DNA of 64,000 bases. Source: Flavobacterium arcticum. Its GTDB lineage: Bacteria; Bacteroidota; Bacteroidia; Flavobacteriales; Flavobacteriaceae. Below the pieces are notes generated by a model. The model saw only the letters and a program-made list of their open reading frames with translations. It searched no databases and was not told where the DNA came from. Below are positions 20,886-37,721 of this stretch, one piece after another; positions within the stretch are counted from its first letter, which is position 1, and every line of letters starts with the position of its first letter. The DNA is taken from assembly GCF_003344925.1 (NCBI RefSeq), contig NZ_CP031188.1:2726001-2790000 (forward strand), written 5' to 3'. A program made the translations under genes and the position numbers.

Positions 20886-21068
20886 ATGCCAAATCAAGAA
20901 GAAATTAAAGGAAACTGGAACGAGTACAAAGGGAAACTAAAACAAGAGTACGGACAGCTTACTGATGATGATTTAACGTACCAAGAAGGTAAAGAAGATG
21001 AAATGTGGGGACGCTTAGAGCAAAAACTAGGTAAGGCTAAAAAAGAAATAATGTCTATTTTTGATTAG
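20886..21068 (+). CDS. CsbD-family small protein
   Basis: This is a 60-residue hydrophilic protein. '[20 protein letters not shown]', followed by '[20 protein letters not shown]', is the CsbD signature. Members are abundant general-stress proteins of unknown mechanism. The gene is monocistronic, 90 bases after ctaA, and is followed by two hairpins in tandem, the second a strong terminator. Confidence 0.9.
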
Positions 21069-21070
21069 AA

Positions 21071-21101
21071 GAATGGTTGATTTGCCCCCAAAAAACCATT
21101 C
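21071..21101 (+). repeat. Hairpin after csbD
   Basis: GAATGGTT (21071-21078) pairs with AACCATTC (21094-21101) across a 15-base loop. It lies two bases after the csbD stop and just before the terminator palindrome. It could protect the 3' end of a short stable mRNA. Confidence 0.5.
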
Positions 21102-21102
21102 T

Positions 21103-21138
21103 AAAAAAACGCTATTTTAATTAAAATAGCGTTTTTTT
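21103..21138. terminator. Bidirectional terminator between csbD and the LytTR regulator
   Basis: A perfect 36-base palindrome: an A7 tract and ACGCTATTTTAA form the left arm, mirrored by TTAAAATAGCGT and a T7 tract. It serves both convergent genes. Confidence 0.85.
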
Positions 21139-21153
21139 ATTTTCATATATAAC

Positions 21154-21912
21154 CTAGCTGCCCAGCCATTGCCTAAAATCGCTTACGCGCTCACGGCTTA
21201 CAATAACCTCATCTTCATTATAAGTAAGTAGTATCACTTTTAGTCGCGAATTGGTATATACCACTATATCCTTAATAGCATCGATGCTTACAACATATTT
21301 ACGGCTTACACGGTAAAATTTAGCAGGGTCTAGTTCACTTTCCAGTTGTTCTAAAGTACACTCTAATAAGTAATCCCTATTTTCAGTTGTATGGATATAA
21401 GTACCTTTATTCTCACTGAAAAAACATTCGGCATCATCCACATTTACAACTTTTAACCGCTGTCCCATTTTTATCGTAAATCGCTTTTTATAGCTCTTCT
21501 CTATTGGGTTGACTAGCATACGTTTTATTTGCTCAAAATCGAGCGATAAGTTTTGCGGTTGCGGACGGTGTTCACGGTATTTATTAATGGCTATTTCAAG
21601 ATCATCCTCATCTATAGGTTTTAATAAATAATCTATACTATTAAGTTTAAAAGCGCGTAGTGCATACTCGTCATAAGCAGTAGTAAAAATAATAGCGCTA
21701 TCTATTTGTACAACTTCAAATATTTCGAATGAAAGCCCGTCAGAAAGCTGTATATCTAAAAATATAAGTTCAGGATGTGCATTGTTACTAAACCATTCTA
21801 TCGCTTCTTCAACGGAGTGCAACATAGTACCTGCTTCTACACCTATTTTTTGCAATTTACGTTGCAATAGTCTTGCCGCAGGTTTCTCATCTTCAATTAT
21901 AATAACGTTCAT
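21154..21912 (-). CDS. LytTR-type response regulator
   Basis: The receiver domain has acidic residues at 'IIIEDEKP' (E7/D8), the phospho-acceptor D53 in 'LIFLDIQLSDG', 'IIFTTAYDEYA' and the conserved Lys in 'YLLKPID'. From about residue 145 follows a LytTR DNA-binding domain ('DAECFFSENKGTYIHT', 'FYRVSRKYVVSIDAI'). At 252 residues it matches the LytR/AlgR group. It is the last gene of an operon whose kinase is encoded at 23216-24556, so it is the likely phosphorylation partner. Confidence 0.93.
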   Translation of the reverse strand: MNVIIIEDEKPAARLLQRKLQKIGVEAGTMLHSVEEAIEWFSNNAHPELIFLDIQLSDGLSFEIFEVVQIDSAIIFTTAYDEYALRAFKLNSIDYLLKPIDEDDLEIAINKYREHRPQPQNLSLDFEQIKRMLVNPIEKSYKKRFTIKMGQRLKVVNVDDAECFFSENKGTYIHTTENRDYLLECTLEQLESELDPAKFYRVSRKYVVSIDAIKDIVVYTNSRLKVILLTYNEDEVIVSRERVSDFRQWLGS

Positions 21913-21956
21913 GTTGGTTGATTGTTTTTTAATCTAAATGTATAATAATTAAACTC

Positions 21957-22277
21957 TTATTCCCATTTTTTCGATTCTCTGTCTTCGTGGCTCATCATCT
22001 CTTTTATTTTACGTTCTTCCCAATTGTTACCTAAAAATATTTGTGACCCGAAAACACCGAAAGCGTGAAACATAAGACCGAAGCCCCAAAAGAAAGCTGT
22101 GTTAAACGTACGAAAAGTAAAAAAATCTTCTCCTGGTTTTAAATCTACCCAGTTTAAAGTTAATAAAAAAGTATTTACTAATACATAAGCAGTAAGGTGT
22201 ATAAAAAAGCCTTTGATAGCTTTTACCCTCTTTTTTGCACGGTCATACCGCATTTGTTCTTCTAATGATCTTTCCAT
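21957..22277 (-). CDS. 2TM-domain membrane protein
   Basis: This 106-residue protein has one 2TM module. An amphipathic charged N-terminus ('RAKKRVKAIKGFFIHL') leads into two hydrophobic helices (about residues 25-45 and 60-85), and 'NNWEERKIKEM' closes the module. The family is common in Flavobacteriia and its role is unknown. It sits between the tandem-2TM gene and the response regulator in a two-component operon. Confidence 0.85.
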   Translation of the reverse strand: MERSLEEQMRYDRAKKRVKAIKGFFIHLTAYVLVNTFLLTLNWVDLKPGEDFFTFRTFNTAFFWGFGLMFHAFGVFGSQIFLGNNWEERKIKEMMSHEDRESKKWE

Positions 22278-22290
22278 ACTATTTGTATTT

Positions 22291-22914
22291 TTATAGCTTT
22301 TTATTTTCTTCTTCCATTAACTCTATAAGTTTGCGCTCTTCCCAATTTTTCCCCATAAATAATGAAGTTCCAAATACTTTAAAAATATGGATAACAAGTC
22401 CTATACTCCACCCTAATGCAGTGCCACATGCAATATAAATAAACAAATCTTGTTCTGTTTGAACCCCAACCCAAAGTAGTACCAGTAAAACTATAATAAC
22501 TACTACATAAGCAGTAAGATGTCTGTAAAAATTCCTTAAAGCACGTACTCTCTTTTTTGTACGATCATAATGTATTTGATTATTTAATGGTACTGTTACA
22601 GTATTTACAGCTTCCTCCTTTACATCTTTATTTCCAATTAACTCTTTTAGTTTTCGTTCTTCCCAGTTTCTATTCATAAATGGCATATAACCAAATACTA
22701 GCATACCGTATAGTAACATTGCTATTCCCCACAATAGTACAGAGTACCAAACCCAATTAAAATCACCACTATAAATGAGATTAATATATATTAGTATCGA
22801 GTTTGTAATAATGTATATCAGCAAGTTAAAATAAAATCCTTTTATAGCTTTTACTTTTTTTTCTGCTTGTTTATACGTTTCGTGTTTATTTTGTTCACTT
22901 TTCATTACTTCCAT
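22291..22914 (-). CDS. Tandem 2TM-domain membrane protein
   Basis: The 207 residues hold two 2TM modules. The first (about 12-95) runs from 'KKVKAIKGFYFNLLIY' to 'NRNWEERKLKEL'. The second (about 118-203) runs from 'KKRVRALRNFYRHLTAY' to 'GKNWEERKLIEL'. Each has two hydrophobic helices, so four are expected in total. The start could be the ATG at 22914 or the ATG at 22905; the latter shares bases with the upstream stop (TAATG). No catalytic motif is seen. The duplication looks internal and local, given the related neighbours on both sides. Confidence 0.83.
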   Translation of the reverse strand: MEVMKSEQNKHETYKQAEKKVKAIKGFYFNLLIYIITNSILIYINLIYSGDFNWVWYSVLLWGIAMLLYGMLVFGYMPFMNRNWEERKLKELIGNKDVKEEAVNTVTVPLNNQIHYDRTKKRVRALRNFYRHLTAYVVVIIVLLVLLWVGVQTEQDLFIYIACGTALGWSIGLVIHIFKVFGTSLFMGKNWEERKLIELMEEENKKL

Positions 22915-23213
22915 TTGTTTTTATTTGTATCCTGCTCCATAAACTCTTTTATTTTGCGTTCTTCCCAGTTTCTGCTCATAAAAGGTAAATAACCAAAAGC
23001 ACCAAGCCCATGTATTAGTACTCCGCTACCCCAAGCAATTGTAGAGTACCAAAACCAATGATATTCAGGAGTAAATCTCAGGTTTATAAATATCAATACT
23101 GGTATTACTATACAATAGCAGGTAAGGTTAATATAAAAACCTTTTATGTCTTTTACTTTATTTTTAGCTCGTTCATAAGCTGCTGCTTCATTATGTCTTT
23201 CTTCCGTTACCAT
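22905..23213 (-). CDS. 2TM-domain membrane protein
   Basis: This is a 102-residue single 2TM module: 'ERAKNKVKDIKGFYINL', two hydrophobic helices, then 'SRNWEERKIKEFMEQ'. It is most like the 2TM tail of the upstream kinase, sharing 'DIKGFY', an H-x-W/L-W-F-F/Y-Y-x-T pattern and 'NWEERKI.EF'. That suggests it arose by duplication of the kinase 3' end. It begins 2 bases after the kinase stop. Confidence 0.83.
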   Translation of the reverse strand: MVTEERHNEAAAYERAKNKVKDIKGFYINLTCYCIVIPVLIFINLRFTPEYHWFWYSTIAWGSGVLIHGLGAFGYLPFMSRNWEERKIKEFMEQDTNKNKWK

Positions 23214-23215
23214 TT

Positions 23216-24556
23216 TTATTTATTTTTCTCCTGTTCGATAAACTCCCTTATTTTGCGTTCTTCCCAATTATTCCCCAAAAATGGCAAGTAGTTAAAAACG
23301 CTCATTCCGTGTATTAGAACCCCTATACCCCACCCCATAGTAGGGTAAAAGAACCATAAATGCTGTGGTGATGTAATAAGGTTAAGTATCATTAAACCCA
23401 AATTAACTACTATAAAAGAAGTAAGGTGACCATAAAAGCCTTTTATATCCTCTACTCTTTTTTGTGCTTTATAATAACTGGTTTCTTTTTCGTTATATAT
23501 TGGTGCTTCCATAATTGTCACCTGTTTTGTTAGTATTGGTAACCTTACCGTAAAATACTCTTGTGTTTGTTCTACAATTACCTTTTTGTTTGTTATAATA
23601 TCATAACGACTCACAATGTTTTGAAGTCCCACTCCTTTTCGACTACTAAGTACCTCTTTCTTTCTAAAATCATTTTGTACTATCAAGTAGCCTTTTTCTT
23701 CAAAAATTTTGATGTGTAATGGCTTTTTCTGGCTTACTACATTATGTTTTATGGTGTTTTCTAACAACAATTGTAATGATAGCGGTACTACTTTAGCTTC
23801 AGGGTTTGTTGTAGCATCGAGCATTTCAAAAGATATACTATTTTCGAAACGCATCTTAAGCAGGTTCATATATGTCTTAGCAAAACTCAATTCTTCCTGT
23901 ACGCTTACCAGTTCTTTATCGCGCTGCTCCAGTACATATCGATATACTTTAGAGAGCGAAGTAGTAAACCGCTGTGCATTATCTGGGTTTTCTTCTATAA
24001 GCGAGCTTAATACATTTAGACTATTAAACAAAAAGTGCGGGTCTATCTGATTTTTTAGCGTTTCAAATTTTGCCGAAGCCGTACCTGCAATAATTTTTTG
24101 TTGTTTTACCCTGTTTTCTTGATATCTTTTATAAAAATAAAAAATGTGTCCCAGCATACTCATTATCAAAGTAATGGTCATAGCTACATAATAATTAGAA
24201 AGCTGCTCTTCTGCCCAAAACTGTTGTAATGATTTACCTTCTATCGCCACATCTTCAAATATCCTTATTAGGAATATTACAAAAAGTGAGACTATAACCG
24301 AAGCAACAAAGCCTACTAATACACGCAATACCATCACCTTACGGTTATTAAAAACTCTTGCTACACCAGCAAATACAAGGTTATTGGCTCCGTAAAGTGA
24401 AAATGTATAAAGCATTGTAAAAAGAAAACTCATTAGTAGGCTGGAGTTCCAATTAACATTTTCTCCTGAAACAATGGCAATAATAACCAGTATCACAAAA
24501 ATGATAACACTAAGTCCCAGTGCTTTAAGAAAACTTTTAAATAATGCTTTAATCAT
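23216..24556 (-). CDS. LytS-type sensor histidine kinase fused to a 2TM domain
   Basis: Four hydrophobic helices occupy about residues 10-145. They are followed by a His_kinase (LytS) domain with the phospho-acceptor H174 in 'LKNQIDPHFLFNSLNVL', an N-box 'LQLLLENTIKHNV', and 'GVGLQNIVSRYD' as the G-box. The sensor region has no periplasmic domain of note. After the ATPase part, a complete 2TM module (about 355-446, ending 'NNWEERKIREFIEQ') is attached, giving six expected helices. It works with the LytTR regulator at the operon's end. It begins 11 bases after the stop of the upstream exported-protein gene. Confidence 0.92.
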   Translation of the reverse strand: MIKALFKSFLKALGLSVIIFVILVIIAIVSGENVNWNSSLLMSFLFTMLYTFSLYGANNLVFAGVARVFNNRKVMVLRVLVGFVASVIVSLFVIFLIRIFEDVAIEGKSLQQFWAEEQLSNYYVAMTITLIMSMLGHIFYFYKRYQENRVKQQKIIAGTASAKFETLKNQIDPHFLFNSLNVLSSLIEENPDNAQRFTTSLSKVYRYVLEQRDKELVSVQEELSFAKTYMNLLKMRFENSISFEMLDATTNPEAKVVPLSLQLLLENTIKHNVVSQKKPLHIKIFEEKGYLIVQNDFRKKEVLSSRKGVGLQNIVSRYDIITNKKVIVEQTQEYFTVRLPILTKQVTIMEAPIYNEKETSYYKAQKRVEDIKGFYGHLTSFIVVNLGLMILNLITSPQHLWFFYPTMGWGIGVLIHGMSVFNYLPFLGNNWEERKIREFIEQEKNK

Positions 24557-24567
24557 TGTTGTCTATA

Positions 24568-25191
24568 TTATTTTTTACACTGCTCTAATTGCTGGGTTGC
24601 TCTGTCTAATCCCCATTTCGGGTGAAAAGGTGTCTCAGGCTTAAAGGTAGCAAAAAGTTCTACAGCACGTTCTATCTCAGCACACATCGGGGCAGTGTCG
24701 TTACCAAAATATCGGGCTGAACCTATCTCAAAATCGGCCTTAGAGAATACTACTCTTGGGTTATCAGGTGCTATTGCCAAAGCTTTAGCATAAATTGCAT
24801 TTACTTTTCCTGAAAGTTTCATACCATTAGTCATAGGGTCATAAACTATCCATGCAGTGTGTATCAATGCCTGCATTACTAATAGCTCGGCATTATTAGG
24901 AGCTATCATCATGGCTTTATCTTGTGCTTCTTGTGCTTTAGCCAGCAAAGCAGGAACTTTGTCTTTATTCGCAGGATTAAAAGCTGCTGTAGTATTAACT
25001 AATGCTACATAATAAGGTGGTAACCAGTTATCCTTTTCTGCTCCTCCTATTCTTTCAAATAAAGCCGATGCTTCTGTATTTTTATTTTCTTGCCAAAGGT
25101 CAAAAGCTGTTTGCATTCCTGTTTCATACTGCGATTGTGCGCATACTGCACTACATACTAAAAAAACGAACATTGTAATTAATCGTATCAT
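24568..25191 (-). CDS. Exported TPR-like protein of unknown function
   Basis: A type I signal peptide ('MIRLITMFVFLVCSAVCAQ') precedes a 190-residue helical region. Pairs of helices around 'WQENKNTEASALFERIGG', 'QEAQDKAMMIAPNNAELLVM' and 'YAKALAIAPDNPRVVFSKA' look like tetratricopeptide repeats. It probably acts in the periplasm as a binding or scaffold protein. It is first in the operon with the 2TM kinase and response regulator, so it may belong to the same sensory circuit. A near-consensus box (CATCTTTG on the minus strand) lies upstream. Confidence 0.75.
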   Translation of the reverse strand: MIRLITMFVFLVCSAVCAQSQYETGMQTAFDLWQENKNTEASALFERIGGAEKDNWLPPYYVALVNTTAAFNPANKDKVPALLAKAQEAQDKAMMIAPNNAELLVMQALIHTAWIVYDPMTNGMKLSGKVNAIYAKALAIAPDNPRVVFSKADFEIGSARYFGNDTAPMCAEIERAVELFATFKPETPFHPKWGLDRATQQLEQCKK

Positions 25192-25310
25192 ATTTTTAAG
25201 TTTTAAATTGGTTGTTATAATTTAACAGTACAAAGATGCAACGGTTTACTAAGGTAGAAAAAACTGTTTATCTGAACTGTTACTTTTTAATGATGAGTTG
25301 TAATTTGGTG

Positions 25311-25318
25311 TATATTTG
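25311..25318 (+). promoter_or_regulatory. Possible -7 element of the STM3941-like gene
   Basis: TATATTTG lies 18 bases before the ATG at 25337. No -33 TTG is present at a normal distance. Confidence 0.4.
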
Positions 25319-25336
25319 TTTGAAAAACACTACCCC

Positions 25337-25864
25337 ATGAGCGAAATAGAAATTCCAAGAAGCCGACAAAAAATAATATTATTGACATTAGGCTCTTTAC
25401 TGTTTATAGCTGCGGGATATTGGATTTCAATTGAAATTGCTGATGAACAAACTAGACTCCCTACTCTGTATGTAAAAATAATTGGAATAATTTCTATTGG
25501 TTTTGGAAGTATTGGATTTATATATAGCTTAAAATCATTGTTTAATCGTAAACATTCACTAATAATTAACAATAAAGGAGTTATAGATAATTCTAGCGGT
25601 GTAAGCGTTGGACTAATTAAATGGAGCGATATAACAGATATTGAGATTACACAGGTTAAATCAACAAAATTCATCTTACTATTTGTCGAAAACCCTGAAC
25701 ACTATATTAACAACTCGAAATCATTTAAAAAGTTTCTACTAAAATCAAATCACAAAATGTATGGAACTCCTTTAAGTATCTCATCTACTTCATTACAATG
25801 CACTTTTGATGATTTAGAAAAAGAAATACGCTCAGGTTTAGAAAGATACCATTCTTTAAATTAA
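25337..25864 (+). CDS. STM3941-family membrane protein
   Basis: The 175-residue protein starts 'MSEIEIPRSRQKIILLTLGS', a start I recognise from the STM3941 family. Two hydrophobic helices (about residues 12-32 and 50-72) precede a soluble domain that looks PH-like, with 'LIKWSDITDIEITQ' and a C-terminal helix. Function is unknown. The ATG at 25337 is preferred over an upstream start that would overlap the promoter box. The gene is AT-rich by eye and ends three bases from the convergent TonB receptor gene. Confidence 0.75.
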   Translation: MSEIEIPRSRQKIILLTLGSLLFIAAGYWISIEIADEQTRLPTLYVKIIGIISIGFGSIGFIYSLKSLFNRKHSLIINNKGVIDNSSGVSVGLIKWSDITDIEITQVKSTKFILLFVENPEHYINNSKSFKKFLLKSNHKMYGTPLSISSTSLQCTFDDLEKEIRSGLERYHSLN

Positions 25865-25867
25865 ATA

Positions 25868-28021
25868 CTACAAATTATCCAACTGATTGGTTTTCTTATC
25901 ATCGCTGATAGTCCAAAAGAAACCTACGAAAAAGAAACGGTCAGCAGGTTGGGTAACAGCTTGTCTATCAAACTGACCATTTATATTAGGTGTATTAGCA
26001 TAACTATAACCAAACACATTATTACTCCCCGTAACATTAGATACTGAGAAATACAATATTTTCTGCTGACTCAAGAGCCAAGCCCAGCTTACACTAAGGC
26101 TATTATAGCTTTTAGTCGTGCCGTTCATAAAAGCTACTTCGTTAGGGTTATCATACGGTCTTCCTGAGTTGAAACTATGGGTTACTCCTACCTGTGACCT
26201 TAGTGAGCTTATAAAATACTTTGTTACTATAGATAGGTTGTGTTTTGCAATATAAGATGGCGTTACTGAGTTTTCATAATTTCTGTAATCGCGTTCACTA
26301 TCTATGTAGGAGTACGAAACCCAGTATTCCAGATTTTTAACCGTTTTATCATCTCGCCAAAATAAGTCAAGCCCCTGTGCATACCCACTCCCGTTATTAT
26401 TAAACTGTGTGCCATACTGTGGCATATTAGTATCATATTTTACTAAATCGGCATAGTCTTTATAATACGCCTCCGCTCTAAAGGTGCGCCCGTTATGGTT
26501 ATACATATAGTTAGCAATGTAGTGTGATGTTTTTTCGTACTCAAAGTTTCTATAATACTTCAAGTACCCCTGTCGTGGTGTTTGATAAAAATCGCCATAG
26601 GCAACGGAGAACTGCCCTTTCTTCCCTACTTTATAAGCTAACGCTGCTCTTGGCTCGAAAGAAGTTTCACCCAATACACTTGAGTTAGAGGTACGTAAAC
26701 CCGCTTTTAAAGCTAAGTTTTTTGAGAAAAATATATCGGTTTCGGCATATAGCGCTGCTATAGAGTTATTGTAACCACTATTGAAAGAGAAACCTGTAGG
26801 CTCGTTATAATCTTCATTAAAATCAGTGATGAAGTAATCTCCTCCAAAAGTCAACTTAAAACGGTTTGTAATTGTTTTTTTCAACCGCAACTTAATGTGC
26901 GAGCTATGCTCTCCGTTGGTAACATTATTTTCATTAATACCTATATCGTTATGACTATAACCATAACTGAATCCGGTATGTATTGACCACATATTACCTA
27001 ACAACCCTTTGTAAGAACTATTAGCATACAAGTTATCGTTAGTAATGCCCGTACGTATAGGCTCAGTATAATTAACATCTTTTTGATTGATACTGAAATC
27101 GGCATGGTCGAAAGCAACATAGGTTTTTAATAAACCATTAGAAAACTTATATCGGTACACCGTTTCGCCCGATAATGACTGGTAGGGTTTATTCCAACTT
27201 ACATTTTGAGGTATCATCCACTGATAAGGCTCTAGGTTGACGTAAGCCATATTAAAACTAAGAGAACTCTTCTCCCATTTCTGAGTATTGCCAAGCCCAA
27301 GCCCTACCGTCATCAGCGATATATCGGTTTGCTCTTGTTCAGGTTCATCAATCGTATTAAGTAATAATACGCTGGATAGTGCCTCGCCATACTCTGCTGA
27401 GTATCCTCCTGTAGAAAATGTCATTCCCTTAAAAAGGAAAGGCGAAAAACGACCACGTGTAGGTAAATTATTAGCCGATGCACCATACGGCTGCGCCACC
27501 CTAATGCCATCTACAAACGTTTGTGTTTCGTCCGATTCTCCACCTCGTACAAATAGCCTACCGCTTTCGCCTACGGTTTGCGTACCGGGCAACGTTTGCA
27601 ATGCTGCTATAATATCGCCTGCACTACCTGCGGTGGTAACAATATCGAGCGGTTTTAGCGCCGTTGTTTTTGTATTGTCTCCTGCCTGAAACGTTCCTGC
27701 CGAAATAACCACGGCATCAAGCGTGTTTACATCCTCGCGCATGGTAAAGGTTTGCGGTTTATACTCCCCTACCACTATACGTTGTCTCAACTCTTCATAA
27801 CTAACAAAAGAGATAATCAGCGTTCTGATTCCTGTTTCAGTAGTCTCAAAAGAAAAAGTACCGTCCTCCGCAGTAACAGCACCGTCATACGTACCATCGA
27901 TATACACATTAGCTGCTGTAAGCGGATTGCCTTTAGCATCGGTTACTTTACCGCTTATGGTTACCTGTGCAAAAATTGTATTACAAACACAAAGAAAAAT
28001 AATTGTAAAGATTGATTTCAT
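25868..28021 (-). CDS. TonB-dependent receptor with carboxypeptidase-like N-terminal domain
   Basis: The order is: signal peptide ('MKSIFTIIFLCVCNTIFAQ'), a CarboxypepD_reg-like beta domain ('ISGKVTDAKGNPLTAANVYI'), a plug domain ('ALQTLPGTQTVGESGRLFVR', 'GGYSAEYGEALSSVL') and a long beta-barrel ending in the aromatic 'RFFFVGFFWTIS'. It is an outer-membrane importer of unknown ligand. At 717 residues it is short and lacks a SusD partner nearby, so it is not a polysaccharide utilisation locus. The ATG at 28021 is used because the signal peptide begins there. The longer frame upstream overlaps the intergenic region. Confidence 0.9.
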   Translation of the reverse strand: MKSIFTIIFLCVCNTIFAQVTISGKVTDAKGNPLTAANVYIDGTYDGAVTAEDGTFSFETTETGIRTLIISFVSYEELRQRIVVGEYKPQTFTMREDVNTLDAVVISAGTFQAGDNTKTTALKPLDIVTTAGSAGDIIAALQTLPGTQTVGESGRLFVRGGESDETQTFVDGIRVAQPYGASANNLPTRGRFSPFLFKGMTFSTGGYSAEYGEALSSVLLLNTIDEPEQEQTDISLMTVGLGLGNTQKWEKSSLSFNMAYVNLEPYQWMIPQNVSWNKPYQSLSGETVYRYKFSNGLLKTYVAFDHADFSINQKDVNYTEPIRTGITNDNLYANSSYKGLLGNMWSIHTGFSYGYSHNDIGINENNVTNGEHSSHIKLRLKKTITNRFKLTFGGDYFITDFNEDYNEPTGFSFNSGYNNSIAALYAETDIFFSKNLALKAGLRTSNSSVLGETSFEPRAALAYKVGKKGQFSVAYGDFYQTPRQGYLKYYRNFEYEKTSHYIANYMYNHNGRTFRAEAYYKDYADLVKYDTNMPQYGTQFNNNGSGYAQGLDLFWRDDKTVKNLEYWVSYSYIDSERDYRNYENSVTPSYIAKHNLSIVTKYFISSLRSQVGVTHSFNSGRPYDNPNEVAFMNGTTKSYNSLSVSWAWLLSQQKILYFSVSNVTGSNNVFGYSYANTPNINGQFDRQAVTQPADRFFFVGFFWTISDDKKTNQLDNL

Positions 28022-28126
28022 TATAACTGTTGTTTTTTGATGGTACAAAGTTGCACCACAATATACAACCGTCATAAAAAACAATACTGAACTGTAATAT
28101 GATACTGATGAGTTGTTTAAACAAAT

Positions 28127-28159
28127 AAAAAAGCCTTTCCAGTTGGAAAGGCTTTTTTT
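28127..28159 (-). terminator. Terminator of the ATPase/Toprim operon
   Basis: The stem GCCTTTCC/GGAAAGGC (28133-28152, loop AGTT) is flanked by an A-run and a T-run. It closely resembles the hairpin at 29837-29869 on the other side of the module. Confidence 0.8.
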
Positions 28160-28160
28160 G

Positions 28161-28715
28161 TTAAATATATTTCGCAATAAATTCCTTTAAAGACTCTCCA
28201 TATTCGGCATCTAAATCCCAACAATCTAAAGTATAATCTCGTTTTTCCTCTTTAGCTTCTAACTTTTGAAAAGACAAGTAAGAATAAACCTGAGTTTTCA
28301 AATCTGGTACATTATAACCCTTACCACTAGCATTTAAGCATTTATTAAAAGGCTTAAAACATTCAAAGATACTTTGATGTTCAGGTACAGTTAATCTGAT
28401 AAGCAATTCCTCTAAAGCACCAATGTCAGTATTATTAGGGAATAAGAAAATTTCAAATTCAACTCCACATTCATTTTTTTGCTTTTGAACATTGTCTAAC
28501 GCAGCCTGAAAATCATTATCTGCATCAAATATCAAAAGGTTAATACCTCCTTGATCTGTATTCATTATAAATTTATTCTTTACGAGATGAATACTGTCTT
28601 TACCTTTTACGTCCACATAATCAATTTCTTCAATATTAAAATGATGTTTTACAAAATCACGTAAGAATTTTTCATCGGCTTTCCCTTCTCCAAAAAATCG
28701 TATTGACTTGCTCAT
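28161..28715 (-). CDS. Toprim-domain protein, DUF3226-like (partner of the AAA ATPase)
   Basis: This 184-residue protein has a small Toprim fold. The conserved Glu is E10 in 'RFFGEGKADEKFL' and the DxD is D64/D66 in 'NLLIFDADNDF'. The N-terminal EGxxDxxFL pattern is that of Toprim nucleases. I place it near DUF3226, also comparable to RloB and DUF4435. A likely role is metal-dependent nucleic-acid cleavage controlled by the upstream ATPase. Its ATG overlaps the ATPase stop (TAATG, 28713-28717), so translation is coupled. The gene is AT-rich. Function is inferred, not shown. Confidence 0.8.
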   Translation of the reverse strand: MSKSIRFFGEGKADEKFLRDFVKHHFNIEEIDYVDVKGKDSIHLVKNKFIMNTDQGGINLLIFDADNDFQAALDNVQKQKNECGVEFEIFLFPNNTDIGALEELLIRLTVPEHQSIFECFKPFNKCLNASGKGYNVPDLKTQVYSYLSFQKLEAKEEKRDYTLDCWDLDAEYGESLKEFIAKYI

Positions 28716-29791
28716 TATCTTAATTCATTTTCTTGTTCGATAGCAAACTCAAATTCTTCGAAATTGTAACGGTAAGCTTTTATACTTTCATCAGGTAATC
28801 GTTTCAAAGTAAAGCTTTTAGTGTCATTCTGGTGTTCTGAATAGTCCTTTTCTTCTAACACTTCTTTAATCGACTTTAAAAACTCATTATTATGCGTTGA
28901 AATAAATAATTGAACCTTATTATTTTTTGCAACTCTAAAAATGGTTCTTATAAAATCTTTATATTTGGTATAGTGTATACCTGTATCTATTTCATCAATA
29001 CATATATATTTACCTTTACATATAACTATCTCAAGTACTATTCTAAATAACCTTATAGTACCATCGCCAAACATTGGAAGTGATAACATTTCATCTTTAT
29101 CTAACAACCAAATACCAATTAAAGGTTCCTTATTAATAGAGTTTATCGTAATTTCAATGTCTTGAATATTTGGAATAATAAATCTAATATTAGACATTAA
29201 TTCTTCTCTTTTTTCTTTGCTATTCGCAAAATTATCAAGGTAAAATCCAATTAAATCATTGGAATAATAAGACGAAGAATAGACATAATTTACAAAATCA
29301 ATTGTTTTTTCATAATTTTGAACTGTATCAAATTTTCGATATACTTCTTTTTTATTTCCTAAATTGACTTTTAATAATTCGTCAGTCATAGTCAAACCAT
29401 TAAAATGTTTTAACAAGCTATTTCTTTCTTCAACAGGAATATCATTAGCCTTAATAGTTTTAAAACTTGCAATAAATTTTGAGGTATTATAATAATTCAT
29501 AGAAATATTTATACTCTCTTTTTTTGTATATCTATTTATGAAAAAATGAAATGGATTCGAAAAAAATACACTTGAAGAATTTATAATATTTTTAAATTGT
29601 AATAGCGCTTGAAAATGTTGAATCGTTTGAGAAATATTTTCTTCAAATAGAAGAGATTCTAAAAAACTTGTCTTTCCAGCATTATTATTTCCCAATATTA
29701 TATTATATAAACCAAATTCACCTGTTGAAAAGTGATTAAAGCATTTGAAGTTTTCAATAGTAATATTTTTGATATGTTTCGTCTTTTCCAT
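28715..29791 (-). CDS. OLD/RecF-like AAA ATPase
   Basis: This 358-residue SMC/RecF-like ATPase starts 'HIKNITIENFKCFNHF', the usual first strands of this family. Walker A is G34-T41 in 'LGNNNAGKTSFLESLL', Walker B is 'YICIDEIDTG' (about 262-271, D266/E267) and the switch His lies in 'LFISTHNNEF' (about residue 300). The middle part (about 60-220) is AT-rich and has no recognisable domain, perhaps a sensor. The length fits stand-alone ATPases paired with a separate Toprim effector (AriA, AbiLi), not the fused OLD form. It is first in a two-gene operon. Confidence 0.85.
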   Translation of the reverse strand: MEKTKHIKNITIENFKCFNHFSTGEFGLYNIILGNNNAGKTSFLESLLFEENISQTIQHFQALLQFKNIINSSSVFFSNPFHFFINRYTKKESINISMNYYNTSKFIASFKTIKANDIPVEERNSLLKHFNGLTMTDELLKVNLGNKKEVYRKFDTVQNYEKTIDFVNYVYSSSYYSNDLIGFYLDNFANSKEKREELMSNIRFIIPNIQDIEITINSINKEPLIGIWLLDKDEMLSLPMFGDGTIRLFRIVLEIVICKGKYICIDEIDTGIHYTKYKDFIRTIFRVAKNNKVQLFISTHNNEFLKSIKEVLEEKDYSEHQNDTKSFTLKRLPDESIKAYRYNFEEFEFAIEQENELR

Positions 29792-29836
29792 ACAACAAAA
29801 CTAATCAAATTTTTATTATCATATTCTTACACTGAC

Positions 29837-29869
29837 AAAAAAAAGCCTTCCCAATCGGGAAGGCTTTTA
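29837..29869 (-). terminator. Terminator downstream of icmF
   Basis: The stem GCCTTCCC/GGGAAGGC (29845-29864, loop AATC) is flanked by an A-run and T-run. It is nearly the same as the hairpin at 28127-28159. Confidence 0.8.
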
Positions 29870-29899
29870 TCTTATAATCAAATTTTCAAAAAATCGAAA

Positions 29900-32800
29900 T
29901 TACATATTTCTCCTGTACTGCCCGCCTACTTCAAATAATGCAGCAGTAATTTGACCTAATGAGCTTACTTTGGTAGCTTCCATAAGCTTTTCAAAGATAT
30001 TTTCATTTTTAATAGCCGTTTCTTGTATTACGGCAAGGGTTTCTTTTACCTTTTCGGCATGCGCACTATGTAGCGTATTTAGTGTCTCAATCTGAAATTG
30101 TTTTTCTTCCTCTGTTGCACGGATAACCTCTAATGGTACAACCGTAGGCGAACCTTTACTACTCAAGAAAGTATTTACCCCAATAATAGGGAACTCACCA
30201 GTATGTTTCAAGGTTTCATAATACAAGCTTTCTTCCTGTATTTTACTACGTTGGTACATGGTTTCCATAGCACCAAGTACTCCACCACGCTCTGTAATAC
30301 GGTCAAACTCTGTTAATACGGCTGCTTCTACAAGGTCAGTAAGTTCTTCTATAATAAACGAACCTTGTATTGGGTTTTCGTTTTTAGCAAGTCCTAGCTC
30401 TTTGTTTATGATTAGCTGAATTGCCATTGCTCTACGCACACTCTCCTCTGTGGGTGTAGTAATCGCTTCATCATATGCGTTGGTATGTAGCGAGTTACAA
30501 TTATCATAAATAGCATATAATGCCTGTAGCGTAGTACGAATGTCGTTAAAGTCAATTTCTTGTGCGTGTAGCGAACGTCCTGATGTTTGAATGTGATACT
30601 TCAACATCTGTGCACGCTCGTTAGCGCCGTATTTATTTTTAAGTGCTTTAGCCCATATTTTACGAGCCACACGACCTATTACTGCATATTCAGGGTCGAT
30701 ACCATTACTAAAGAAGAACGACAGGTTAGGACCAAAATCGTTAATGTTCATGCCACGGCTTAGGTAGTATTCCACGTATGTAAAGCCATTAGCAAGCGTA
30801 AACGCTAACTGTGTAATAGGATTAGCACCCGCCTCGGCAATGTGGTATCCTGATATAGAAACCGAGTAGAAGTTCCTTACATTATTAGTAATAAAATATT
30901 CCTGTACATCGCCCATTAATCGAAGTGCAAACTCCGTAGAGAAAATACAAGTGTTTTGTGCTTGGTCTTCTTTTAATATATCGGCTTGCACTGTACCACG
31001 CACTTGGCTTAGGGTACGTATTTTTATTTCATTATATACATCAGCAGGTAGTACCATATCTCCAGTAGCACCTAGTAACATTAACCCTAAACCATCGTTA
31101 CCTTTTGGCAATTCGCCATTATAACGCGGACGTGCTACGCCTTTATCAGCATATATTTTTTTGATTTTTGCTTCAACTTCTGCTTCCAGTCCGTGTTCTT
31201 TAATGTAAAGCTCACATTGCTGGTCGATAGCTGCATTCATAAAGAAACCTAACAACATTGGTGCAGGACCATTAATAGTCATACTCACCGATGTCATAGC
31301 ATCTGCTAGGTTGAAACCTGAATATAATTTTTTAGCATCATCCAAACAGCAGATAGAAACACCTGCATTACCAATTTTACCATAAATATCTGGACGGAAA
31401 TCTGGGTCATTACCATAAAGTGTAACACTATCAAATGCTGTAGATAAACGTTTTGCAGGCATACCTAAGCTTACATAGTGAAAACGTCTGTTGGTACGCT
31501 CGGGACCTCCCTCTCCTGCAAACATACGTGTAGGGTCTTCGCCCTCTCGTTTAAACGGATATAATCCTGATGTAAATGGGAATTCTCCCGGTACATTTTC
31601 TTGTAAACACCAACGTAATATATCGCCCCAAGCCTGATACTTTGGTAAGGCAATTTTCGGTATTTGTGAGTGCGAAAGCGACTCGGTATGCGTTTGTATT
31701 TTTATTTCTTTATTTCTTACTTTAAAGGTATAAACAGGATTTTTATATTTGTTTACTTTTTCATCCCAAGTCAAAATAATTTCCCAATTGTAAGGGTCAA
31801 GATCCATTTTTACACGGTCGAACTCTTTTAGTAAAAGTGACGATAATTCCTGCTTACCGTCTTGCCCTTCGGCTTGGCTCATTGCGAAAGAAGATTCTTC
31901 TATACCAAACTTAGTAAGTTGTGGTATTTTACCTGTAACCGACTCTATGGTTTTATATATACCGTATAGTTTTTGTGCCACCTCTTGCTGAGATAAGGCT
32001 ACCTCATCATACTTACGGTTATTCTCTGCTATTTCGCTTAGATAACGTGTACGGCTTGGCGGAATCACAAATATTTTCTCGCTCATTTCGCGGGTAATTT
32101 CAAAAGTTGACTTTAAGTCGGCTTCTGTTCTTTCCGCTACTTTATCCATTATCTTTTTGTACAGCGTATTCATCCCTGGGTCGTTAAACTGCGAAGCAAT
32201 CGTACCAAATACAGGTAAAGTATCTGGGTCGTCATGCCACAGGTTATGATTACGTTGGTATTGTTTTTTAACATCACGAAGCGCATCTAGCGAACCACGT
32301 TTGTCAAACTTATTAATGGCAACAAGGTCAGCAAAATCAAGCATGTCAATTTTTTCCAACTGTGTAGCAGCACCAAATTCTGGTGTCATTACATATAACG
32401 ACACATCAGAGTGCTCTAATATCTCGGTATCAGATTGACCAATACCTGATGTTTCAAGAATTATAATATCATATTTTGCAGCTTTAAGCACTTGTATAGC
32501 TTCGGCTACATATTTAGAAAGTGCTAAGTTACTTTGCCTTGTAGCAAGCGAACGCATATATACCCTCGGGTTATTTATGGCATTCATCCTGATGCGGTCG
32601 CCCAGTAAAGCACCACCTGTTTTACGCTTAGAAGGGTCTACAGATATAAGACCAATTGTTTTCTCTGGGAAATCAATAAGGAAACGACGTACCAACTCAT
32701 CTACTAAAGATGATTTACCTGCACCACCTGTACCTGTTATACCTAGTACTGGTATTTTTGAAGTTTCGTTTTTCTTATGGATAGCATCAAGCGTTTCTTT

Positions 32801-33340
32801 AGCTATTTCAGGGAAATTCTCTGCTGCCGAGATAACTCTTGCAATAGCTGTAGGTACTTTATCTTCAAGATGATTTGCTTCATCGGTTAGCTTATCGCCA
32901 ATAGGGTAATCGGCTTGTTGTACTAAATCGTTTATCATCCCTTGAAGTCCAAGCTCACGACCATCATCTGGCGAATAAATACGGGTAATACCATATTCGT
33001 GCAACTCTTTTATCTCTTCAGGCAAAATAACACCGCCACCACCACCAAATATTTTTATATGTCCTGCTCCTTTTTCTTTTAAAAGGTCGTGCATATACTT
33101 AAAATATTCGTTGTGCCCACCTTGGTAAGATGTCATGGCTATAGCATTAGCATCTTCTTGTATAGCAGTATTTACCACTTCTTCTACACTACGGTCGTGC
33201 CCAAGGTGTATAACCTCTACACCTGTCGATTGAATAATACGACGCATAATATTTATTGCAGCATCGTGACCATCAAATAATGAGGCTGCTGTAACTATTC
33301 TTACTTTATTTTTGGGAGTATAAGGTTGTGCTTGTTCCAT
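29900..33340 (-). CDS. icmF: Fused isobutyryl-CoA mutase IcmF / methylmalonyl-CoA mutase-family protein
   Basis: This is a B12-dependent acyl-CoA mutase carrying its own chaperone. Near the N-terminus is a cobalamin-binding domain with '[16 protein letters not shown]' (H25 the likely lower Co ligand). A MeaB-like GTPase follows, with P-loop '[17 protein letters not shown]' around residue 205. The mutase barrel occupies the C-terminal half ('[20 protein letters not shown]', '[17 protein letters not shown]'). This domain order and the 1146-residue length define IcmF. It rearranges isobutyryl-CoA to n-butyryl-CoA or related substrates. The ATG at 33340 is chosen because the longer frame adds only nine unlikely residues. 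It is transcribed alone. Confidence 0.9.
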
Positions 33341-33439
33341 TGTTGAAATATATTCAATTTTAAGCACGCAATTTACGGAATTATTAAAAAATTCAAAGCA
33401 AATTAGAGGTATAAAAATGTATATGGTAAAAAAGCTAAC

Positions 33440-33628
33440 TTATTGTACTGCTTTTGCTTTTCGTTCTTTAATTATCTTTCTAAGCTCTGGAGCTATATAA
33501 GATAAAACTACAGTGAATACCCCTACAAAAAGAGCATCGTTTAGGTTATTATAAACAAAGTAGTATAACACACCTGTAAATACTGACGACAATAAAACAA
33601 AAACTAAAATAATTTTAATAATTCGCAT
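33440..33628 (-). CDS. Small membrane protein of unknown function
   Basis: From the ATG at 33628 the product has 62 residues with two hydrophobic helices ('IIKIILVFVLLSSVFTGVLY' and 'DALFVGVFTVVLSYIAPEL') and a basic C-terminus ('RKIIKERKAKAVQ'). I recognise no family. A TATATTTG box and a 22-base palindrome lie just upstream, which supports a real gene. It lies downstream of the VOC gene on the same strand. Confidence 0.6.
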   Translation of the reverse strand: MRIIKIILVFVLLSSVFTGVLYYFVYNNLNDALFVGVFTVVLSYIAPELRKIIKERKAKAVQ

Positions 33629-33639
33629 GATGTGAAACG

Positions 33640-33661
33640 TATTTGATATACATATCAAATA
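33640..33661. promoter_or_regulatory. 22-base palindrome upstream of the small membrane protein gene
   Basis: TATTTGATAT, AC, ATATCAAATA is a perfect inverted repeat with a 2-base centre. It overlaps a minus-strand TATATTTG box (33656-33663) and ends 11 bases before the ATG. This is a typical repressor-site placement. No T-run follows, so it is not a terminator. Confidence 0.5.
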
Positions 33662-33685
33662 TAATAAATTAAAAGTTGATTTTAT

Positions 33686-34339
33686 TTACATAACAAACTG
33701 ATGCACAACTCCGCTATTCATAAACAATACACGAGTATGATAAGAATGGGCTTTTATTGTTACAGGGTACCATTCGCGCTCATTTTCAACTAAAATAAAA
33801 AGTCCCTCATCATTGCCCAAAACAGTAAATTGTTCTGCACGAGGCTGTCTATGAAAAATAGGTACTCCAAACTTTGCGGTAATACTATCGGCAAACTCAG
33901 GAACTTTTTGAGTAACCAAACCTATTTCGCTTATCGAAATATAAGATTCATTACTAAAAGCTGTACTAGATAATACATTATTATCATAGCGAGTAATGAA
34001 CTCTAGTATATTACCATTATTATCATAAAAATAGAAAGATCGCGCATGCCAATTCCTAAAATCGGCAATATTGCTTCCGCCTGGCACGGGTATAATATCG
34101 ACTTTCTTTTTCATAAAGTCATGCCCTTCATCAAATCGATTATTAGGAATATCTATAGCAAAATGATATACGGGTTTTACATTTTCAGATTTTTTAAAAA
34201 TCAGCTTGGTATAGCCTATTTGGTAAAAAAGTACTGATTTACCTTCTTTCATATATGGTTCCAGCCCTAGAACCTCTCTATAAAAAGATTCTGTTCCAGT
34301 AATAGTATCCGTAAGCAATTCCAGTTCTAATATTTTCAT
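33686..34339 (-). CDS. VOC-superfamily (glyoxalase-like) protein
   Basis: The 217-residue protein has two beta-alpha-beta-beta-beta modules. The first contains 'YREVLGLEPYMKEGKSVLFY' and 'YFYDNNGNILEFITRYDN', and the second starts at 'SISEIGLVTQKVPEFADSI'. Such proteins bind a metal between modules. The Glu in 'NILEFI' and a His in 'PVYHFAIDI' are candidate ligands. The reaction is unknown: it may be a dioxygenase, lyase or resistance protein. It follows the catalase gene on the same strand, but a terminator separates them. Confidence 0.8.
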   Translation of the reverse strand: MKILELELLTDTITGTESFYREVLGLEPYMKEGKSVLFYQIGYTKLIFKKSENVKPVYHFAIDIPNNRFDEGHDFMKKKVDIIPVPGGSNIADFRNWHARSFYFYDNNGNILEFITRYDNNVLSSTAFSNESYISISEIGLVTQKVPEFADSITAKFGVPIFHRQPRAEQFTVLGNDEGLFILVENEREWYPVTIKAHSYHTRVLFMNSGVVHQFVM

Positions 34340-34404
34340 TTGAAGATGGTTTCAATACTAAGCAAGGTAGTCAATTCTTAAATGTAATGATATTTTTATT
34401 ATGT

Positions 34405-34436
34405 AAATAAGCCTCTGCATTACAGAGGCTTATTTG
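34405..34436 (-). terminator. Terminator of the catalase gene
   Basis: GCCTCTG (34411-34417) pairs with CAGAGGC (34423-34429), extended by flanking A and T bases. The minus-strand T-tract is short. Confidence 0.6.
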
Positions 34437-34456
34437 TTATTTGTGAAATGTTTTTA

Positions 34457-35935
34457 TTATCTCATCATATCCATATCTACATTAATACCTAATCCTTTGG
34501 CTATTGCCATACCTAGGTTAACATCAGCTCTAAACCAGTGGCAGAGTTGCCTATTGATTATTTCTTCTTTTTTAACACCGTTTATCCCACTCATAGCTCC
34601 AACAATATTGTGTATAGTATTGGCTTTAGCCTCATCTGTCATCAATCGGAAAAGGTTTCCTGGTTGTGTATAGTGGTCATTCTCATTTTCTGCATTGCGA
34701 TCATACCAGTCGGCTATACTGCTCTCCAACTCCTGTGCAGGTTCTTTATAGCTTTCATCTATTTTTATATCATCAAAGCTATTCGGGAAGTAATTTGGTT
34801 TACTACCTCCGTTACCATCAATTCGCATAGCTCCATCTCTCTGGTAATTATTCACAGCAAAAGGACAGCGGTTTACAGGTATTTGCTCATAATTCGCTCC
34901 TAATCTATAACGATGTGCATCTGGGTAAGACAATAACCTACCTTGCAACATCTTATCTGGTGAGTACCCCACACCATCTACCACGTGTGCAGGAGCAAAA
35001 GCAGCCTGCTCTACATCCTGAAAATAATTATCGGGGTTACGATTTAGCTCTAGTACCCCAACATCTATAAGCGGATAATCTTTATGTGGCCATACTTTAG
35101 TCAAGTCAAACGGGTTAAGATGATACGTTTTTGCTTCTGCTTCGGGCATTACCTGTATTTTTAAATTCCATTTAGGGTAATTGCCTTGCTCTATATTTTC
35201 AAAAAGATCACGTTGCGAAAAATCAGGATCTTTACCTTTCATTGCTGTAGCCTCTTCATCGGTAAAATTTTTAATTCCTTGTGCTGTTTTAAAATGGAAT
35301 TTTACATAAAAGCGCTCATCATTTTTATTCATGAACGAAAAAGTATGGCTACCATAACCATTCATGTGTCTATGCCCATAGGGTGTACCTCTATCGCTCA
35401 TTAAAATTAATACCTGATGTAAACTTTCGGGGTTAAGCGACCAGTAGTCCCACATCATAGTAGGCGATTTCATATTGGTTTGCGGGTCGCGTTTTTGGGT
35501 ATGTATAAAGTCGCCAAACTTTTTAGGATCTTTTATAAAAAATACTGGAGTATTATTTCCTACCAAATCCCAATTGCCATCTTCGGTATAAAATTTCAGT
35601 GCAAAACCACGAGGGTCACGCTCCGTATCAGCAGAACCTTTTTCGCCCCCTACAGTAGAAAAACGAAGCAATGTATTTGTCTGTTTTCCAACTTCCGAAA
35701 ATAATTTAGCTTTGGTATATTTAGTAATATCATGTGTAACTGTAAAAGTACCAAATGCCGCAGAGCCTTTAGCATGTACTACCCTTTCAGGAATACGCTC
35801 TCTATTAAAATGAGCCATTTTTTCGTGTAGTATATAATCTTCTAGTAATATAGGTCCGCGAGGTCCTACAGTTTTCGAATCTTCATTCTCTGTATAAGGT
35901 CTTCCTGAGGCGGTTGTAAGTTTATTATGTTTCAT
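34457..35935 (-). CDS. katA: Monofunctional heme catalase
   Basis: The enzyme disproportionates hydrogen peroxide. It is a small-subunit, clade-3-like catalase of 492 residues. The catalytic His is H54 in '[15 protein letters not shown]', the active-site Asn is in '[15 protein letters not shown]' and the proximal Tyr is in '[15 protein letters not shown]'. '[20 protein letters not shown]' is the heme-binding region. No signal peptide is seen, so it is cytoplasmic. A plausible promoter and an inverted repeat resembling an activator site lie upstream. Confidence 0.95.
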
Positions 35936-35964
35936 AGTTATATGGTTTATAGATTTTAATTACA

Positions 35965-35999
35965 CAAATATAATTTTCAATAGTATTTATTTATACAAA
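35965..35999 (-). promoter_or_regulatory. Probable catalase promoter
   Basis: The minus strand has TTTG (35996-35999), a 23-base spacer and TATATTTG (35965-35972), 29 bases before the ATG. The spacer is at the upper limit of the consensus. Confidence 0.55.
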
Positions 36000-36003
36000 A
36001 AAG

Positions 36004-36025
36004 CATTGTTTATACTTATACAATG
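36004..36025. promoter_or_regulatory. Inverted repeat upstream of the catalase promoter
   Basis: CATTGT (36004-36009) and ACAATG (36020-36025) flank 10 bases. The geometry ATTGT-N10-ACAAT fits the T-N11-A boxes of LysR-type regulators. It ends 4 bases from the -33 element, where an OxyR-like activator would bind. It also lies 55 bases upstream of the divergent DUF4197 gene. Confidence 0.35.
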
Positions 36026-36080
36026 ATAATAACACTCTATTGGAACAGTTTTTGTTTAAATTTATGAAAAATAAAAGACA

Positions 36081-36812
36081 ATGAGAAAAATAGTATTCAC
36101 TTTATTATTAGTAACTACCTTATATACAAATGCTAATGCTCAATTTAAAGACCTACTTAACAAAGCAAAAGATAAGGTGAGTAGTGTAACAGGAGATAAC
36201 TCACTTAGTAATACAGACATTGCATCTGGACTTAAAGAAGCACTTAATAAAGGGGTAACAGAGCAAGTTACCAAACTAACGGCTGAAGATGGTTTTTATA
36301 AAAATGAAGCTGTAAAAATACTGCTACCCGAAGAGCTGCAAAAAGTAGATAAAACTCTTAGAAAAATGGGTATGAACGATCTTGCCGATGAAGGTATAAA
36401 GGTACTGAACCGTGCTGCCGAAGAAGCTGTAAAAGAGGCTACACCAATATTTGTAGATGCTATAACTAATATGAGTTTTAACGATGCTAAAAATATATTA
36501 GTAGGTGAAGATAACTCGGCAACACTATACCTCGAAAAAACAACAACTCAACCACTATATACAAAATTTAGTCCTGTAGTAAATGAATCGTTAGAAAAAG
36601 TAGGTGCTAATACCGTTTGGGAAACTATTATAACAAAATATAACAGTTTACCTTTTGTTAGTGATGTAAACCCAGACCTTACTGACTATGTTACCAATAA
36701 AGCTCTAGAAGGTGTTTTTACCATGATAGCAGTAGAAGAAAAGGATATAAGGACAAATTTATCGTCTAGAACTTCCGATTTGTTAAAAAAAGTATTTGCT
36801 TTACAGGATTAA
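36081..36812 (+). CDS. DUF4197 protein, periplasmic form
   Basis: The 243-residue protein has a type I signal peptide ('MRKIVFTLLLVTTLYTNANAQ') and a helical DUF4197 domain over most of its length ('DIASGLKEALNKGVTEQVTK', 'VKILLPEELQKVDKTLRKMG', 'NPDLTDYVTNKALEGVF'). Function is unknown to me. It is a tandem paralogue of the next gene, 16 bases away. The two differ mainly at the N-terminus, where this copy ends in a signal peptidase I site and the other in a lipobox. Confidence 0.85.
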   Translation: MRKIVFTLLLVTTLYTNANAQFKDLLNKAKDKVSSVTGDNSLSNTDIASGLKEALNKGVTEQVTKLTAEDGFYKNEAVKILLPEELQKVDKTLRKMGMNDLADEGIKVLNRAAEEAVKEATPIFVDAITNMSFNDAKNILVGEDNSATLYLEKTTTQPLYTKFSPVVNESLEKVGANTVWETIITKYNSLPFVSDVNPDLTDYVTNKALEGVFTMIAVEEKDIRTNLSSRTSDLLKKVFALQD

Positions 36813-36828
36813 ACAAAAGCATTTATTT

Positions 36829-37700: not shown

Positions 37701-37721
37701 ATCTGTAAATCAGTATAGTTA

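Follow-up and report, generated by a model that had tools for sequence, protein, structure and literature searches.

Among the systems closest to the locus described here, AriB of PARIS is a DUF4435 protein, and the PtuA ATPase of Septu and of retrons has an HNH nuclease as its partner, to which retrons add a reverse transcriptase. In sections of PMC12409363, AriB is described as a Toprim nuclease that cuts tRNA, with AriA as its ABC ATPase sensor. According to sections of a network study (PMC10440598), AbiL acts by abortive infection through a Toprim effector, AbiLii, which is RloB-like, and AAA-ATPase/Toprim_OLD pairs, AbiL included, are placed among toxin-antitoxin-like systems. The same sections report that two ATPase/Toprim_OLD pairs of other bacteria were validated via toxicity neutralization and that modeling of such pairs gave no convincing interface (PMC10440598).

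The locus analyzed here lies in a 64,000-nucleotide stretch of the Flavobacterium arcticum genome (hereafter, the window). Two genes on the minus strand, one for an ATPase of 358 amino acids (positions 28715 to 29791) and one for a DUF3226 Toprim protein of 184 amino acids (28161 to 28715), both present as open reading frames, are coupled by a TAATG stop/start (28713 to 28717, minus strand), the middle A of which is common to both genes. Intrinsic terminators on the same strand bound the pair, one with 14 pairs 3' of the Toprim gene (28127 to 28158) and one with 12 pairs after the mutase gene and upstream of the pair (29841 to 29868); they are very similar and are the sole matches of their common pattern in the window. 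Lying alone between these terminators, the window pair is not embedded in an operon. Its G+C content is 26.3%, versus 34.3% for the window and 39.0% for the mutase gene, and only 1 of 624 segments of 1631 bp, taken every 100 bp, is as low or lower. The adjoining genes encode a mutase with MM_CoA_mutase, MeaB, and B12-binding domains, which we take to be IcmF, and a TonB receptor. The first-pass annotation had described this overlap and these metabolic-type flanks correctly, and its G/C counts (12 and 11 per 60 bases in two lines of the pair and 24 in one of icmF) were exact.

In the sister genome, the order is mutase (95% identical), a 321-aa lipoprotein, and TonB receptor (85% identical), so that the window pair occupies the place of the lipoprotein gene; the terminator downstream of the pair resembles that of the sister genome at the same place. 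The region just after the mutase differs in three other relatives too, which marks it as a variable spot. Because of its low G+C content and the different gene found at this site in the sister genome, the window pair was probably acquired recently. The suggestion that it might be a mobile defense cassette stands only in part, given the lack of any mobile-element gene noticed by eye among the open reading frames of 19776 to 39101 and the location of many relatives in core operons. Inspection by eye also picked out two unrelated features of the window, namely, small similar proteins built of units of ~100 aa ending in NWEERK beside a LytTR-type regulator, with one such unit fused to a histidine kinase end (21957 to 24556), and two adjacent similar proteins of ~245 aa that resemble a tandem duplication (36081 to 37539).

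The ATPase matched the Pfam families AAA_15 (59.6 bits; cut-off, 32.1) and AAA_21 (52.4 bits; cut-off, 27). Its Walker A motif is GNNNAGKT (residues 34 to 41), the Walker B DE lies at 266 and 267, and the switch His is residue 300; G34, N36, G39, K40, T41, D266, E267, and H300 are invariant in alignments of 20 and 61 rows. The predicted structure (pLDDT 93.0) has an SMC/Rad50-like fold by structure comparison, and Foldseek returned the retron Eco8 effector as the best match (E value of 4.7e-12), with PtuA, GajA, and OLD also matching. By profile, alignment, and model, the first gene encodes an ABC-type (SMC/Rad50/OLD-type) ATPase with its active-site residues retained, in agreement with the OLD/RecF-like ATPase and the motifs read from the sequence in the first-pass annotation. 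Strong membership of a housekeeping ATPase family had been named there as a result that would count against a defense role; the NCBIfam RecF model gave only 26.9 bits against a cut-off of 172, and housekeeping RecF was rejected. Segment analysis, mostly of relatives, divides the protein into a conserved start with Walker A (residues 1 to 55), a part that is hypervariable in relatives (56 to 205), a part with Walker B and the switch His (206 to 310), and a C-terminal tail that covaries with the Toprim partner (311 to 358). On the tree of relatives, the window ATPase is a lone long branch that is not firmly placed, with a best identity of 36% and a position outside every supported clade; the mosaic and site results given below therefore rest on relatives and may not hold for the window pair.

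The Toprim protein matched DUF3226 (PF11536) over residues 10 to 182 with 49.9 bits against a cut-off of 27, and the same family was matched by all 23 Toprims of our sample, the window's included. D64 and E102 are invariant in an alignment of 62 rows, and E10, D66, and G99 are at least 90% conserved. The fold is RNase M5-like by structure comparison, and the window protein combines a Toprim fold with the catalytic E and DxD. The product of the second gene is, on profile, alignment, and predicted fold, a Toprim protein that retains its metal ligands, as had been read from E10 and D64/D66 and a resemblance to DUF3226; we infer that it is a putative nuclease effector (E10, D64, D66, and E102) and that the ATPase is a putative sensor and restraint. 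Other searches with the Toprim protein gave a chance NAD kinase match alone in NCBIfam (E value of 0.039), no match in PHROGs, and chance matches only among PDB sequences; AriB chains were absent among the structural matches listed, from which no exclusion follows.

Both proteins were searched against the PADLOC models, the scores being reported here as they stand, apart from PADLOC's own thresholds. The best of all ATPase models was AbiLi (160.2 bits over 2 to 340 of 340), with PDC-M38A (116.2 bits; E value of 6.4e-34) and the weaker AriA model (65.4 bits) also matched; all 20 sample ATPases, including that of the window, match each of these three models at E values up to 1e-10. The window Toprim matched PDC-M38B weakly (23.9 bits; E value of 7.1e-6; residues 82 to 169 only) and AbiLii weakly (23.7 bits). 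At E values up to 0.01, PDC-M38B was matched by 22 of the 23 sample Toprims, two AbiLii models by 1 of 23 each, and the AriB model by 2 of 23 (best E value of 0.0016). At E values up to 1e-4, the Toprim of one relative (L042) reached 29.0 bits with AbiLii and 23.3 bits with PDC-M38B, and that of a nuoE/nuoF relative, Flavobacterium sp. HJJ (L104), matched no PADLOC model. For the window Toprim, no RloB (PF13707) or DUF4435 match in Pfam, no AriB match in PADLOC, and no HNH match was obtained at E values up to 1. Of the families proposed earlier for comparison, AbiL (strongly for the ATPase, weakly for the Toprim) and DUF3226 were thus recovered, and RloB and DUF4435 were not. The literature search returned no publication under DUF3226 or PDC-M38. 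Its model matches place the window pair, as a divergent member, in a candidate class that is catalogued but uncharacterized and stands near AbiL and PDC-M38. The earlier description of the system as undescribed has to be given up, since AbiLi and PDC-M38A match the ATPase and PDC-M38B and AbiLii weakly match the Toprim; uncharacterized, within the literature searched, remains the right word.

DUF3226 matches over the cut-off were found in 17 of 395 genomes of the phylum (28 matches), and an ATPase relative was present in the fetched locus for 25 of the 27 matches outside the window's genome (16 of the 395 genomes). Within the genus, the window's own genome was the only one of 121 with a match over the cut-off; in another five, long frames gave matches that were weak and partial. 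A collection of species genomes was then scanned with five ATPases, which gave 121 confirmed relatives, and the best 80 of the 121, by likeness, were kept. A Toprim gene adjoins the ATPase gene in 75 of these 80, the gap being -4 in 26 and -1 in 16 of the 75; three of the five loci lacking the Toprim gene are at or near a contig end (L077, L082, and L103) and two are not (L047 and L092). Relatives of the two genes, as recognized by sequence, co-occur in many genomes with order and orientation kept, a recurrence whose absence the first-pass annotation had set as grounds for abandoning its proposal. Searches of plasmid and phage collections by tblastn (E values up to 1e-3) turned up no relative of the Toprim. 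A phage-like viral contig holds a fragmentary ATPase relative (L031:5668-6141), beside which the A1 profile detected no Toprim partner. Nine ATPases are 1,369 to 1,565 aa long, owing to a long N-terminal extension, with the Toprim gene still next (L048, L052, L063, L079, L085, L091, L093, L094, and L099); the first 1,200 residues of L063, the sole long ATPase scanned, gave a weak AAA_22 match only. Some relatives look broken, with an internal stop in the Toprim frame of L003 and the ATPases of L101 and L109 in two pieces. One metagenome-assembled genome named Limnohabitans (L105) carries a nuoF ~90% identical to that of Flavobacterium, and its contig is probably mis-binned.

Neighbors of the best 80 of 121 pairs were clustered by blastp and representatives were named by Pfam; the short gene names used here (nuo, metH, ugd/uxs, and pccB) are presumed. 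Recurring core-gene sites hold 42 of the 80 pairs: nuoE/nuoF (13 pairs, L111 being beside nuoF only and some having one side off the contig), nuoB/nuoC (6), nuoF/nuoG (1), metH (8), ugd/uxs (5), and an M42 peptidase or carboxyl transferase (pccB-type) gene (9). Other pairs border succinyl-CoA ligase, UDP-GlcNAc 2-epimerase, MraW, and Clp-type genes. At the nuoE/nuoF site, in each of the 10 loci in which nuoE was read, the cassette starts 2 to 9 bases past its stop, and nuoF starts at most 11 bases from the cassette end in 9 of 11 loci.

For comparison, a control survey took in 20 of the 28 DUF3226 matches, 20 RloB matches among those listed (66 genomes), and 17 of 21 DUF4435 matches, from which 18, 16, and 10 units, respectively, were readable with an ATPase and both neighbors; a first survey with short flanks had covered 24 of the 28 DUF3226 matches. 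In the best-80 set, 75 loci have the Toprim gene and 66 have both neighbors readable. Same-strand neighbors within 50 bp on both sides were found for 26 of 66 pairs in the best-80 set and 4 of 18 in the DUF3226 phylum sample, compared with 0 of 16 RloB and 0 of 10 DUF4435 controls. On either side, the counts were 51 of 66 (49 when large overlaps are left out) and 12 of 18 (10), compared with 2 of 16 and 4 of 10; 2 of the 12 phylum cases rest on doubtful frames that overlap the pair by ~50 bases. Against the 26 controls together, the best-80 excess has P values of 5e-5 (both sides) and 1e-5 (either side), although members at the same site are related and so do not count as independent. When the named sites are left out, it falls to 5 of 31 (P = 0.056) and 14 of 31 (P = 0.10). 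Four of the 20 phylum loci are also in the best-80 set; without these and with a stricter gap, the phylum sample gives 2 of 14 (P = 0.12) and 6 of 14 (P = 0.28), the 26 controls giving 0 and 6, respectively. What is solid in this result is thus that certain core-operon sites recur; the general excess of close neighbors is not firm, because it shrinks both outside the recurring sites and in the phylum sample without the shared loci.

We surveyed the nuoE/nuoF junction across the genus in 61 genomes, 56 of which had nuoF and 54 of which were readable, the two at contig ends being left out. The junction is empty in 53 of the 54, with a gap of 1 to 25 nt (2 nt in the window's own genome). In the remaining genome (G458), an HEPN-MNT type pair lies exactly between nuoE and nuoF (L294:1271-1916), with Pfam matches of PF18765/PF01909 for the nucleotidyltransferase gene and PF01934 for the HepT-like ribonuclease gene; the MNT protein matches PADLOC PDC-S09, and the HepT protein has no PADLOC match. 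We also counted site changes on a quickly built tree of 79 ATPase rows, using labeled rows and setting aside the 39 unlabeled ones. Among labeled rows, nuoE/nuoF (12 rows), metH (7), nuoB/nuoC (6), and ugd/uxs (5) need one change each, compared with shuffle means of 10.4, 6.6, 5.7, and 4.8, respectively, and 0 of 500 shuffles were as low; SH-aLRT values for these groups are 94, 99, 90, and 93. Four of the 39 unlabeled rows fall inside the nuoB/nuoC group, and the tree does not resolve the fork that joins the ugd/uxs group, L032, and the window. The M42 site needs four changes and the pccB site three, and together with one other row they fill a supported 10-row clade. A tree of the concatenated pair leaves 5 of its 11 inner branches open.

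Change within these loci is mosaic. Between F. cheongpyeongense and F. salmonis, nuoE is 98% and nuoF 99% identical, versus 72% for the ATPase and 26% for the Toprim. At the DNA level, identity is 87 to 97% in nuoE and 97 to 98% at the ATPase start, falls to 60% in the middle, and returns to 98%; it is 37 to 54% in 13 of 14 Toprim segments and then 84 to 97% in nuoF. In these two close species with flanks 98 to 99% identical, the ATPase middle is 45 to 60% identical. Two Chryseobacterium loci (L090 and L107) share 88% of the Toprim, 50% of the ATPase, and 98% of nuoF. Two Larkinella loci have neighbors 99% and 96% identical with an ATPase at 53% and a Toprim at 52%, and two Spirosoma loci have a downstream gene at 95%, with 57% and 60%, respectively. 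We compared Toprim and ATPase identities by a partial Mantel type test on 61 pairs (60 of the best-80 loci plus the window), a test that does not fully remove shared ancestry. With the Walker B part allowed for, Toprim identity tracks the last 48 ATPase residues (partial r of 0.48; 0 of 500 permutations as high), follows the first 55 slightly (partial r of 0.12; 13 of 500), and does not follow the middle (partial r of 0.03; 114 of 500). Since Toprim identity follows the tail and not the middle, the tail (residues 311 to 358) may be partner binding, and the middle (56 to 205) may be an independently evolving, sensor-like part.

Taken together, these data favor a model in which the pair is one immune-type unit that would work like AbiL and PARIS, by abortive infection or as a toxin-antitoxin; we put its probability at about two in three, on comparative sequence data. 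In the resting state, the ATPase would bind the Toprim protein via its C-terminal tail and hold it inactive. The variable ATPase middle would recognize a phage product or an infection-linked change, upon which ATP hydrolysis would alter the complex and free or activate the Toprim, which would then act as a nuclease; its target would most likely be RNA, for example tRNA as in the case of AriB, and the infected cell would halt growth ahead of phage release. Lineages of the unit would be tied to particular core-operon junctions, where sensors and effectors could be exchanged by recombination via the conserved flanks and the conserved ends of the ATPase; the window unit stands alone between its two terminators, where the sister genome has the lipoprotein gene. 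We favor this reading because the genes are so consistently paired, because the closest models are defense models, because two ATPase/Toprim_OLD pairs are validated and AriB/AriA provides a precedent (sections of PMC10440598 and PMC12409363), because the Toprim and the ATPase middle diverge beside near-identical flanks while the Toprim tracks the ATPase tail, because an HEPN-MNT pair occupies the same nuoE/nuoF junction in one genome, and because the window pair looks acquired. Against it count the weak match of the Toprim to defense models (24 bits) and the absence of any PADLOC match for that of L104, the lack of Toprim relatives in plasmid and phage collections with a single fragmentary viral ATPase relative, and the absence of a convincing modeled interface for such pairs in the sections of PMC10440598 concerned.

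The TA-type pairing, the TA behavior of two related pairs (sections of PMC10440598), the tiny gaps to core genes, and the presence, in one genome, of a TA-type HEPN-MNT pair at the nuoE/nuoF junction would also suit a plain toxin-antitoxin or addiction module that persists for itself, its insertion in core operons shielding it from deletion and supplying transcription and any defense being absent or incidental. However, the exchange of effectors and the hypervariability of the ATPase middle, next to flanks that stay constant, are more suggestive of an arms race, and the 53 of 54 readable Flavobacterium nuoE/nuoF sites that are empty imply weak retention. We regard such a module as unlikely, if still worth keeping in mind.

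The grouping of pairs by site could also reflect a homing-like selfish element, in which the Toprim nuclease and the ATPase would cut an empty junction and repair would copy the pair in; insertion is exactly at the junction, and the nuoE/nuoF, nuoB/nuoC, metH, and ugd/uxs pairs each require a single change among labeled rows, lower than in any of the 500 shuffles. Yet the same pattern arises from ordinary recombination through the flanks, at one site the Toprim is swapped while the site stays, which a site-specific nuclease should forbid, and an unrelated HEPN-MNT pair is found at the same junction, so that we consider homing very improbable. We give just as little credence to a housekeeping role, the repair or processing of DNA or RNA, in connection with the neighboring metabolic genes. 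An SMC/Rad50-like ATPase fold, an RNase M5-like Toprim fold, and housekeeping neighbors would fit such a role, but over-cut-off DUF3226 occurs in only 1 of 121 genus and 17 of 395 phylum genomes, and the pairs diverge strongly beside conserved flanks and are carried in different operons.

A broader extension of the immune-type reading is possible, though we hold it doubtful: core-operon junctions (those of the complex I nuo genes, metH, and ugd/uxs, among others) might serve as promoterless docks for two-gene immune cassettes that rely on the operon for transcription, replace one another as alleles when the conserved flanks and ATPase ends recombine, and diversify in sensor and effector between flanks that stay nearly identical. 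Coupling to the operon could itself be the trigger, if phage shut the operon down and the restraining ATPase were no longer replenished. The HEPN-MNT module found in one genome is an unrelated occupant of the same dock. The extension is weakened because the phylum sample alone fails to carry the embedding and because the best-80 excess comes mainly from recurring sites with related members. That immune-type cassettes may be tied to particular core-operon junctions and change fast there rests on the relatives, and we find this the most interesting aspect of the results. To judge from these relatives, immune-type genes may also hide singly in core metabolic operons, where searches for defense islands would miss them, and the analysis gives an uncharacterized ATPase-Toprim class a testable anatomy: a possible sensor (56 to 205), a possible effector-holding tail (311 to 358), and a putative cutter.

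How does the pair compare with named systems? OLD nucleases and Gabija GajA are single fused chains, whereas the window ATPase and Toprim are two open reading frames, and the GajB helicase is absent from the two immediate neighbors (mutase and TonB receptor), so neither Gabija nor OLD was retained. Septu and retron PtuA differ in that the partner of the window ATPase is DUF3226, not an HNH nuclease; with no PtuB, Septu was set aside. The window pair, an OLD/RecF-like ATPase coupled to a separate DUF3226 Toprim protein, is arranged, as first proposed, in the manner of PARIS and AbiL. PARIS likewise has an ABC ATPase sensor and a separate Toprim effector (sections of PMC12409363), but the window Toprim matches neither DUF4435 nor AriB at E values up to 1, and PARIS itself was rejected. 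AbiL of Lactococcus (AbiLi/AbiLii) is a two-gene ATPase-Toprim system whose AbiLi model spans nearly the whole window ATPase; its AbiLii is RloB-like (sections of PMC10440598), and an RloB-type AbiL effector was rejected for the window Toprim, which has no RloB match at E values up to 1. PDC-M38, a PADLOC candidate (PDC-M38A and PDC-M38B), has the same two genes, an ATPase and a DUF3226-type Toprim, but it is a catalogue entry only, and the window's Toprim matches PDC-M38B weakly. Operon-embedded ATPase-Toprim pairs were not reported in the parts consulted of the literature matches listed. In Pseudomonas aeruginosa, the core defense hotspots cDHS1/2 carry defense cassettes between conserved core flanks, and recombination through the flanks has been suggested (sections of PMC10250203). 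The cassettes of the relatives are likewise flanked by conserved core genes; unlike cDHS1, which spans 1 to 224 kb (PMC10250203, same sections), each is a lone two-gene unit, often inside a metabolic operon.
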